Source: Holophagaceae bacterium (GTDB lineage Bacteria; Acidobacteriota; Holophagae; Holophagales; Holophagaceae). Taken from it: a stretch of 33,761 bases of DNA. Positions within the stretch are counted from its first letter, which is position 1; each line of letters starts with the position of its first letter. The position numbers and the translations under genes are program-made. This document shows positions 15,481-17,959 of this stretch, in pieces. The stretch is from contig PMJK01000181.1 of NCBI GenBank assembly GCA_003158505.1, forward strand, positions 1 through 33,761. The letters are read 5' to 3'. The notes beneath the pieces were generated by a model. It saw only the letters and a list, made by a program, of their open reading frames with translations. It was not told the origin of the DNA and did no database searches.

Positions 15481-16125
15481 ATGATCACCGGCTACAACAC
15501 GGATGTACGGCACGGGAACCGGGTCTTCCATGTCCAGACAGAGGACAAGGGTCGGTCCAACCCCAAGATTGAAACGCTCATCTATGTGGGCGGCGAAATC
15601 CTGGACAATTATCGTTCGTCCTACGGGGACCTGCTGGCTCGTCCTCCCGTGTCGGAGTCGGCCATCCAGGGGCTCATGGACGACCAGCATCGGGCCGTCA
15701 TCCGCGACATCAAGAATGGCAAGTACGATCCCACCCCGCCAGATCTCATGGAGTCGGAGGCCTTCAATGACCGCCCCCTGGATCAGGCCATCCTGGAATT
15801 TCTTCAACAGGAAGGCGATGTGGACTGCCTCGAATTGGTGTTGGACCAGCCCCTCAAGCCCGCCTTTGGGAGCTTGTTCCGGGTGGAGGTGCGGGCGCGG
15901 CTGTGCCAGAGCCAGAGCCCAGTGTCCGGTGCCGAAGTGGCCGTGAAACTGGTATCCAGCCTCAAGAAGGCCTCGAGCCTGCTGTCGGGGCGGACCAGTG
16001 CTGATGGCCTGTTTGTCGGCGAGGTCCAGCTTCCCCCCAGCCAACCAGGCCAATGCGCCGTCGTGGTGAGTTGCACCAGCGACCAGGGTTTCGATGAATT
16101 GAAGGCTGCCGTGGTGGTTGTTTGA
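15481..16125 (+). CDS. Conserved protein of unknown function
   Basis: 214 residues. The N-terminal 60 residues are distinctive: ITGYNTDVRHGNRVFHVQTEDKG, then PKIETLIYVGGEILDNYRSSY. I remember similar N-termini in Acidobacteriota and deltaproteobacterial relatives as unnamed proteins, but cannot assign a function. A charged middle part (IQGLMDDQHRAVIRDIKNGKYD) is followed by a C-terminal region of about 90 residues with strands like an Ig-type or carboxypeptidase-regulatory fold (LFRVEVRARLCQ, VSGAEVAVKLVSSL, GRTSADGLFVGEVQLPP). No signal peptide or membrane segment is seen. It follows the receiver protein by 54 bases, so a shared pathway is plausible. The stop TGA ends exactly at the first base of a perfect palindrome. 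Confidence 0.8.
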   Translation: MITGYNTDVRHGNRVFHVQTEDKGRSNPKIETLIYVGGEILDNYRSSYGDLLARPPVSESAIQGLMDDQHRAVIRDIKNGKYDPTPPDLMESEAFNDRPLDQAILEFLQQEGDVDCLELVLDQPLKPAFGSLFRVEVRARLCQSQSPVSGAEVAVKLVSSLKKASSLLSGRTSADGLFVGEVQLPPSQPGQCAVVVSCTSDQGFDELKAAVVVV

Positions 16126-16150
16126 GTGTCTAAATAAAAATTTAGACACT
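16125..16150 (+). promoter_or_regulatory. Perfect inverted repeat overlapping the -35 box: candidate operator of the B12 regulator
   Basis: Two 11-base arms (AGTGTCTAAAT / ATTTAGACACT) around AAAA, AT-rich in a GC-rich setting. The right arm contains TAGACA (16143-16148), five of six matches to a sigma-70 -35 box, followed after 16 bases by TATCCT (16165-16170), a good -10 box. A protein bound here would block that promoter. It could also be a terminator for the preceding gene, since TTT follows directly, but only three T are present. Confidence 0.65.
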
Positions 16151-16189
16151 TTTGCTGCAGCCCTTATCCTGGTCCTCACGGGGTGGGCC

Positions 16190-17038
16190 ATGGCCAAGGT
16201 TGAGCCGGAACTTCTGAGCATTGGTGATATCTGCTCGGAGACGGGCCTGTCGGCGGACGTGTTGCGGGTCTGGGAACGCCGCTACGGATTTCCGGTTCCA
16301 GTGCGTCTGCCTTCGGGTCATCGGCGCTATCGGCAGGCGGACCTGCACCAGTTGAGACTCATGGCCGAGGCTGTCGCCCAGGGGCATCGCCCCTCCATGG
16401 TGGCGAGGGCCGGGGAAGCAGCCCTGAAGCGGTTGCTCGTCCCCATGGACGACCCCAGGGTGGAAGCTTTGTTCCACACCGTGGTCGCGATGGACACGGA
16501 CCGGATGCGCTGGCTTCTGAGGGAATCGCTCGATCATTTGGGCTGGAAGCCTTTTCTTCAGCACATCGTCGCCCAGCTTCTGGATCGGGTAGGCATGGCC
16601 TGGGCCGATGGCAGCATCGGCATAGAACAGGAGCACCTGCTCACGGAAGTACTGGAGGATCTTCTTCGGGAACGGCGCCTGGCGTTCCCGACCCTGCCTG
16701 ATCAGGGCAGGGTCCTGCTCTGCACCTTGCCGGGGGAGCGCCACCGCCTGGGCCTGCTCATGGCGGCCCTGGCCTACGCGGCCCAGGGAATCAGCACGGA
16801 GCTGTTGGGCGTGGACCTTCCGGTGGCGAGCATCGCCCAGGCCGGACGGACGCTGATGGTGGATCGCGTGGCCGTGAGTCTTTCCATCCAGAGTGCCGGG
16901 GAGACGACTCGCCGACTGCTCATGGATCTCCAGGAACGCCTGCCTCCCAGGTGCCGGCTCATCGTTGGGGGCCAGGGTGCCGCCCGGACCAGGAAGATCG
17001 TTGGGGTGGAACGGATGACGGGACTGGACGTGATTTGA
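16190..17038 (+). CDS. MerR-type transcriptional regulator with CarH-like adenosylcobalamin-binding photoreceptor domain
   Basis: 282 residues. Residues 9-75 are a MerR winged helix (LLSIGDICSETGLSADVLR, VWERRYGFPVP, SGHRRYRQADL). Residues 85-160 form the four-helix cap with W-x9-EH (Trp138, Glu148, His149), the motif that in CarH proteins holds the deoxyadenosyl group. A Rossmann-like B12 domain follows with ExHxxG (Glu183, His185, Gly188), His185 being the expected cobalt ligand, then VAVSLSIQ and the GG loop at 260-261. The spacing matches Thermus CarH closely. Known members are tetramers in the dark that block a promoter and fall apart in light. The ATG at 16190 is chosen because the upstream extension to 16118 would run through the operator palindrome. 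It converges with the next gene with only 3 bases between stops. Confidence 0.9.
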   Translation: MAKVEPELLSIGDICSETGLSADVLRVWERRYGFPVPVRLPSGHRRYRQADLHQLRLMAEAVAQGHRPSMVARAGEAALKRLLVPMDDPRVEALFHTVVAMDTDRMRWLLRESLDHLGWKPFLQHIVAQLLDRVGMAWADGSIGIEQEHLLTEVLEDLLRERRLAFPTLPDQGRVLLCTLPGERHRLGLLMAALAYAAQGISTELLGVDLPVASIAQAGRTLMVDRVAVSLSIQSAGETTRRLLMDLQERLPPRCRLIVGGQGAARTRKIVGVERMTGLDVI

Positions 17039-17041
17039 GGG

Positions 17042-17959
17042 TCAGGGGTCCGCTGAGGACCCAGGGTCATCTGGGGCCCACTGCTTCCGGAGACGGTGAA
17101 GCAGGAGACGTAGCTCCAGCAGCAGGGGTCGGGCCGCCAGGAAGCACAGGAAGCCTGCGAGCGGCACCGTCAGCTTGAAGCCGATGTGCTTGAACCCGAG
17201 GGCCCCTACCACGCCGCCGCTGAGGAAGGACACGAGGATCAGCAGCAGGAGGATCAGCTTCGGGCGGTTGGCGAGGATTCGGGCCCGGCCGCGCCGCTGA
17301 TGGACGTTCACGTAGGTGAGCCGGCTCAGTTCAATGCCGATGTCCGTGATCGTGCCCGTCAGGTGCGTGGTGCGGACCGCGGCGCCGGAGATGATCGAGG
17401 TCACCGCGTTGTGCATGCCCATGATGAAGCAGAGCAGCATCACGGTCATGGGGAGTGTGAACTCCATTTCCTCCTGAAGCCGGTTCCCCATGAAGCCGAA
17501 TACCAGCATGAAGGCAGCTTCGACCACCAGGGTCAGCGCGTAGCGGCTGCGCATGCGGCGACGCTGCCCAAAGCTGATGAGGGTGGAACAGAAAAAGGCC
17601 CCGCCCAGGAAGCTCAACATCATGGCCAGGGCCGCGAGGGCCGTGGTGAGGTCCCCCTCGGCCAGTACATCCGCCATGGAGGAGACCACACCTGTCATGT
17701 GGGAGGTGTAGTGGCCCACCGCCAGGAACCCGCCCGCATTCACCGCCCCCGCCACGAAGGCCATGGCCCAGGCTAGTTGGCGGTTGAGGCTCTCCGATCG
17801 CAAGGCGCCCTCGCGCACCAGCAGCTTCTCCTGGATGGGCAGGCTGGCCACGGCCGACTCGATCACCGCCTGGAGCTGCTGCGTGTCCAGCCGGTTCCTG
17901 AGCAGCCTCCGCAGGTAGCGGGCCACGATCAGCTGGATGGCACGGGGGATGCGGCGCAT
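17042..17959 (-). CDS. DUF1275 (YoaK-like) membrane protein with N-terminal extension
   Basis: 305 residues. The DUF1275 core is plain: VNAGGFLAVGHYTSHMTG near residue 75 and GMHNAVTSIISGAAVRTTHL followed by TGTITDIGIELSR around 180-210, plus about six membrane helices. The family is of unknown function, suspected to be a transporter. A cytoplasmic, arginine-rich extension of about 60 residues precedes the first helix (RAIQLIVARYLRRLLRNRL), longer than in most members. The ATG has no Shine-Dalgarno sequence, and a TAGACT box ends 9 bases before it, so the mRNA may be nearly leaderless. It is divergent from the asparaginase gene. Confidence 0.9.
   Translation of the reverse strand: MRRIPRAIQLIVARYLRRLLRNRLDTQQLQAVIESAVASLPIQEKLLVREGALRSESLNRQLAWAMAFVAGAVNAGGFLAVGHYTSHMTGVVSSMADVLAEGDLTTALAALAMMLSFLGGAFFCSTLISFGQRRRMRSRYALTLVVEAAFMLVFGFMGNRLQEEMEFTLPMTVMLLCFIMGMHNAVTSIISGAAVRTTHLTGTITDIGIELSRLTYVNVHQRRGRARILANRPKLILLLLILVSFLSGGVVGALGFKHIGFKLTVPLAGFLCFLAARPLLLELRLLLHRLRKQWAPDDPGSSADP

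Follow-up and report, generated by a model that had tools for sequence, protein, structure and literature searches.

In Thermus CarH, His132 ligates cobalt in the light-exposed protein, giving a bis-His light state. CarH/LitR of Thermus thermophilus (PDB 5c8d, 5c8e, and 8c31) combines a helix-turn-helix (HTH) domain, a four-helix bundle, and a Rossmann domain, and its operator consists of three 11-bp direct repeats; CarH proteins of the Thermus type control carotenoid synthesis. Myxobacterial CarH and CarA also act on carotenoid operons, and their operators are plastic in design, with a TnnACA half-site, the -35 box held within the CarH operator, and inverted repeats in those of CarA (PMC9304148). 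In the acidobacterium Chloracidobacterium thermophilum, the B12-MerR protein CtMerR (B12 domain, PDB 8jbs and 8jbt) lacks the bis-His ligand; its report describes a tetramer in the dark and a monomer in the light, and a DNA-binding domain divergent from that of CarH (PMC11796333). Class II LitR proteins of Pseudomonas (PplR/PmlR), unlike those of class I, retain no more of the B12 site than its helical-bundle half and work together with LOV proteins, and their light regulon includes the type I GTP cyclohydrolase gene folE, a short-chain dehydrogenase, and a fatty-acid-modifying enzyme (PMC9758184).

We analyzed a stretch of 33,761 nucleotides, hereafter the window, for which an original prediction had proposed a CarH-type photoreceptor in an acidobacterial-like genome. 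The genome does belong to the Holophagaceae, in a genus containing Geothrix rubra, and 47 genomes of this genus served as the comparison set. The surprising part of the outcome is the predicted target of the regulator, which is riboflavin synthesis and not carotenoids.

A CarH-type protein in the Holophagaceae

The gene lies on the plus strand at 16190-17038 and, as originally claimed, encodes a MerR-like regulator, a 282-aa MerR-B12 protein identified from its open reading frame, Pfam matches, and structure model. The ATG at 16190 is preferred over an in-frame TTG at 16118 because orthologues start there and because the operator and promoter described below fill 16127-16170. A MerR HTH domain (residues 10-72; 16217..16405; PF13411 [MerR_1], 3.6e-11) is followed by a four-helix-bundle B12-binding_2 domain (residues 92-159; 16463..16666; PF02607, 8.9e-8) and a Rossmann B12-binding domain (residues 174-265; 16709..16984; PF02310, 3.6e-8), all on the plus strand; Pfam and an AlphaFold model, which also delineates the last two domains, agree on this order, which is that of CarH.

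The signature residues are exactly those that had been read from the sequence. In HMMER alignments, Trp138 (the adenosyl cap; codons of Trp138 and Ala139, 16601..16606, plus strand), Glu148 and His149 (16631..16636, plus strand), and His185 (16742..16744, plus strand), the predicted cobalt ligand, correspond to Trp131, Glu141, His142, and His177 of Thermus CarH. Neither motif is a product of chance: among 51 aligned relatives drawn from several phyla, the three residues of the W-x9-EH motif are invariant, and within the ligand motif, G182-E-R-H185-R-L-G188, residues E183, H185, and G188 are at least 90% conserved. Arg184, Gly200, and Asp209 align with R176, G192, and D201 of Thermus CarH, which we take to be its dimer-contact residues; the numbering of the 3whp chain runs 5 ahead of the published one, and this offset was corrected by hand.

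Thermus CarH/LitR structures are also the nearest solved ones to this protein (E ~4e-31), at an identity of ~29-35%. The NCBIfam CarH equivalog model NF052513 scores 134.4 bits (E 4.6e-39), below its cut-off of 400 bits, and by the narrow NCBIfam definition the protein does not count as a CarH equivalog. The AlphaFold (AF2) model, built from the 51-relative alignment, has a pLDDT of 91, and its residues 88-282 superpose on dark-state, B12-bound Thermus CarH with a Z score of 22 and an rmsd of 2.0 Å over 187 residues. The next-best structural matches are photocobilins and CtMerR (Z 19.8), the latter with 22% identity in the aligned domain. On this high-confidence apo model, with the whole B12 domain superposed on B12-bound CarH and His185 sequence-aligned with its cobalt ligand, the original placement of His185 at the B12 site is not contradicted. 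The genome also has a gene for the adenosyltransferase that makes adenosylcobalamin (AdoCbl).

The original prediction missed one feature: the residue after the capping tryptophan is Ala139, in the place of Thermus His132, and the bis-His ligand is absent here. Alanine occupies this position in all genus homologues among the matches listed. We fetched 80 named relatives, picked by likeness to the query and so no census of the family, and in the 77 with the W-x9-EH motif the residue is never His, being A, E, M, L, S, T, I, V, R, Q, or G. These observations bear on whether the protein might depend on B12 without being light-switchable, the photolyzed form staying oligomeric and DNA-bound for want of the His132 ligand. 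The Thermus H132A variant is mostly still tetrameric after light (PMC10442372), and light release with Ala139 is therefore not guaranteed. The CtMerR report, however, describes monomerization in the light with Arg at this position and a Glu/water contact to cobalt (PMC11796333), and with no His among the 77 relatives His132 looks like a Thermus peculiarity. We therefore consider the loss of light switching improbable. As far as these relatives indicate, His132 is no general family feature, and a protein without it can hardly be denied light sensing on that ground; by analogy with CtMerR, the light state here is probably held by water or Glu rather than by a bis-His arrangement.

Strong carH homologues (E <1e-70) are present in 31 of the 47 genus genomes, with close orthologues (clade 1) in 22 of the 31, and the other 16 have none. 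Geothrix rubra Red803 has a carH gene (L182). Two neighbors serve as syntenic markers of the locus: upstream, a RomY N-terminal-domain protein (15481..16125, plus strand; NF053858), and downstream, a convergent DUF1275 protein (17042..17959, minus strand; PF06912). The two preceding genes had been described as a receiver protein and a conserved unknown; the former stands (PF00072), and the latter is the RomY-N-domain protein. Side-branch paralogues in the Holophagaceae (L191:4001-4819, L192:4001-4828, and L195:191-946) show a disturbed W-x9-EH motif, and their ligand motif reads GENRNLD instead of GERHRLG. Judged by these residues they are apparently B12-blind, CarA-like copies alongside CarH copies, which recalls the CarA/CarH pair of Myxococcus.

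Operator and promoter of carH

The operator to which the original prediction alluded is real. It is a perfect 22-bp inverted repeat, TGTCTAAATAAAAATTTAGACA (16127..16148, not strand specific), composed as TGTCTAAAT-AAAA-ATTTAGACA, which is conserved upstream of orthologues and recurs elsewhere as PWM/CM sites; each arm contains the CarH half-site TnnACA in the form TAGACA. Chance is ruled out as its origin, with 0 occurrences expected in the window and a nearly empty reversed-pattern control. A promoter scan identifies a putative -35 box, TAGACA, within the right arm (16143..16148, plus strand) and a putative -10 box, TATCCT (16165..16170, plus strand), and this TAGACA-16-TATCCT arrangement (9/12) is the sole sigma-70-like promoter in the scanned stretch. 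The arrangement is kept in the clade-1 orthologues: in 21/21 a -10-like hexamer, carrying A and T at both key places, begins 16-17 bases past the right arm, and the -35 box lies inside the operator. The position of the -35 box is thus as in myxobacterial CarH, and the single inverted repeat differs from the direct repeats of Thermus. The same palindrome is found 5' of CarH relatives in Planctomycetes and in some betaproteobacteria. The planctomycete palindrome lies between carH and a reading frame that, by eye only, looks fatty-acid-synthase-like (L199) or photolyase-like (L208).

The reading as a CarH-type photoreceptor is supported by the predicted domain order, the cap, ligand, and dimer-contact residues, the modeled fold, and an operator over the gene's own -35 box. 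Judged by its domains, residues, fold, and operator, we regard the protein as an ordinary and well-supported member of the class I LitR/CarH type.

Search for further operators

The regulon had been called unknown, with a genome search for further operator copies suggested; that search was run and specifically predicts carH and ribA as targets. Across the 47 genomes, a pattern search returned ~35 operator sites vs 3 for the reversed control, and those not at carH lie mainly 5' of ribA and of a TIGR01777 oxidoreductase gene. To avoid circularity, the PWM used for scoring was built from the 21 carH sites and no others; it was run on the regions upstream of the ribA, oxidoreductase, and photolyase genes. 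In 16 of the 17 genomes with clade-1 carH, the ribA site stands at a fixed -111 to -114 and scores 17.8-34, compared with a 99% value of 8.1 and a maximum of 12.1 for shuffled sequences. Seven clade-1 genomes have an oxidoreductase site scoring 24.9-32.3 and one has a weaker site at 13.8; the PWM scan found none in carH-less genomes and none in the window's own genome.

A motif model built from the carH, ribA, and oxidoreductase classes matches the own genome at E ≤3 in two places only, carH and ribA (C168:2302-2328), and the same two places in its close relatives G033, G034, and G044; five of six carH-less genomes have 0 sites. Training sites match by construction, and the informative part of this result is the absence of further sites. 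With the own genome at 86.6% completeness, additional targets may have escaped the search. Single motif matches, each confined to one or two genomes and lying near genes that by eye are cytochrome-like, hemerythrin-like, recG, and ispH, were not counted as targets. One further motif site, in G043 (L049:925-2900), is found where a DUF1365 gene ends, just 5' of a cyclopropane-fatty-acid (CFA)-synthase-like gene. The DUF1365/CFA synthase pair is a known member of regulons for photo-oxidative stress.

No carotenoid or photolyase gene had been noted beside carH, correctly, and neither was found in the whole assembly. The best characterized CarH proteins control carotenoid genes, and given the incomplete assembly a classic carotenoid or photolyase switch might have its targets in the unassembled 13% of the genome. 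The relatives contradict such a reading. The phytoene/squalene synthase family (SQS_PSY) is absent from 14 genus genomes, complete ones included, which rules out a carotenoid target. Class I photolyase, although present in 39/47 genus genomes, was not detected in the window's genome (G000) or in G033, G034, and G044, and in 20 upstream regions from carH genomes the best PWM score is 9.7, within the shuffled range, so that photolyase is ruled out as well. G008, G014, and G030, whose assemblies are nearly complete, lack such a target as well, and we give a classic switch next to no credence.

RibA, a GTP cyclohydrolase II (GCHII), catalyzes the step with which the synthesis of riboflavin (vitamin B2) begins. 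The enzyme here is a stand-alone protein of 219 aa (PF00925, 206 bits; TIGR00505, 230 bits) with its zinc cysteines intact. In all six genus genomes examined (L273-L278), RibB has a GCHII-like fusion partner from which the zinc cysteines are lost (VETLPDDLHGF for SEC...CDC). The own genome has one RibA and one RibB, the latter resembling the fused ones in length. With a single RibA and a cysteine-less GCHII-like domain on the RibB proteins examined, RibA is therefore probably the only working GCHII in this genome and the gate to flavins.

No FMN riboswitch was found on ribA in a search of 12 genus genomes, and an upstream extension of RibA is ruled out as coding in G000, where the frame has a stop. 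RNAalifold predicted no pairs between the operator and ribA, in a weak test with one row (L089) out of register. A conserved element, TTGC-N-CAGACT, lies ~8 bases 3' of the operator and is tentatively assigned to the promoter. Across the genus, and whether or not carH is present, the ribA leader has a conserved GCGGCATCCAA motif, for which no structure was predicted (e.g., L075 and L084; alignment A4).

Loss of the ribA site together with carH

The ribA site accompanies carH across the genus: it is present in 16/17 genomes with clade-1 carH vs 2/16 without any carH (Fisher, 2e-6, treating genomes as independent, which they are not). Among the genomes with clade-1 carH, only G043 lacks the ribA site. 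The absence of carH is polyphyletic on a tree of the nrnA-ribA region. In G029, G006, G039, G032, G003, and G010, the RomY and DUF1275 genes abut and carH is cleanly deleted, and in G022 there is a remnant comprising the last ~17 codons of carH (RIRKVEGVERRLGLEVI) just 3' of the RomY gene (L289), together with a decayed ribA operator; the ribA site is absent from all seven genomes. The left arm of the site overlaps the stop codon of nrnA (ATT GTC TAG), and part of its conservation is therefore coding; the right arm is intergenic and is the part that disappears along with carH.

This pattern also weighs on whether the palindrome belongs to another regulator, with carH merely one of its targets. 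Two genes that are not neighbors, carH and ribA, have the site in common, and G031 and G007 have it 5' of ribA with no carH found. In both of these genomes, however, the RomY gene is missing too; the whole carH locus therefore lies outside the assemblies, which may just be incomplete. Moreover, the site was lost together with carH in several independent lineages, the palindrome also stands 5' of CarH relatives in Planctomycetes and betaproteobacteria, and its arms carry the published half-site TnnACA. Control by a different regulator is, in our judgment, highly improbable.

In a branch with several CarH paralogues (G013, G036, G037, G038, and G045; L103, L136, L141, L096, and L137), a shorter inverted repeat (e.g., TTGTTTGATACAA) and another promoter-like stretch replace the ribA site, which suggests a changed operator at ribA in these genomes.

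Discussion

We consider it likely that this protein is an AdoCbl-dependent, light-released class I LitR/CarH-type repressor of carH and ribA. In the dark, AdoCbl would be held with His185 as the lower cobalt ligand and with Trp138 and Glu148 against the adenosyl group, and the AdoCbl-bound oligomer on the 22-bp palindrome would block RNA polymerase at the carH -35 box, giving autorepression; at ribA, it would most likely block access to the promoter just 3' of the operator. Green or blue light would break the Co-C bond, the oligomer and its grip on DNA would be lost, and carH and ribA would be derepressed. Since RibA is the entry to flavin synthesis and probably the genome's sole working GCHII, light or a lack of AdoCbl would then raise flavin synthesis. 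The operator lies over the -35 box at carH, 5' of the likely -35 box at ribA, and in the ribosome-binding region of the oxidoreductase gene, a variation in position typical of a repressor rather than an activator. At ribA it is 5' of, and not over, the likely -35 box, and activation there is therefore conceivable.

The same protein and targets could also respond physiologically to the level of AdoCbl and not to light, with plentiful B12 lowering flavin synthesis. FMN is a precursor of the B12 lower ligand, and the system would therefore form a B12-to-flavin feedback loop. The residues that serve dark AdoCbl sensing are the same, the adenosyltransferase is present, no photoprotection gene is among the own-genome targets, and photolyase genes lack the motif. 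Geothrix, moreover, is known to live anaerobically in sediments and aquifers, which receive little light. Yet the additional targets in relatives, the TIGR01777 oxidoreductase and the DUF1365/CFA synthase pair, resemble genes of light or photo-oxidative regulons, and the adenosyl-capping W-x9-EH signature is the one validated for light-responsive B12 domains (PMC11796333). We regard AdoCbl level as a rather unlikely signal, though the strongest competitor to light-released repression, which we continue to prefer.

The predicted targets are echoed by those of class II LitR in Pseudomonas, with its GTP cyclohydrolase, dehydrogenase, and fatty-acid-modifying enzyme; folE serves pterin/folate, whereas ribA serves flavin. 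In the literature searched, which mostly did not include subscription papers, we found no report of CarH/LitR control of riboflavin synthesis. In Geothrix fermentans, secreted riboflavin serves as an electron shuttle (Mehta-Kolte and Bond 2012, as cited in PMC6041382). On balance, we lean toward a B12 photoreceptor devoted to the reaction that opens riboflavin synthesis, in a genus known to secrete this vitamin as a shuttle for iron respiration; light or the level of AdoCbl would then govern flavin output and, through it, extracellular electron transfer.

These observations bear on how Geothrix, without detectable FMN riboswitches, regulates flavins usable as electron shuttles to iron, and on the means by which CarH-type proteins switch when the His132 ligand is lacking, as it is in all relatives examined. 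The B12 photoreceptors of this family have so far been read mainly as carotenoid or photoprotection switches; here, the conserved predicted target is ribA, in organisms without carotenoids. As a target, ribA would tie one vitamin cofactor, AdoCbl, together with light, to the making of another, flavin.
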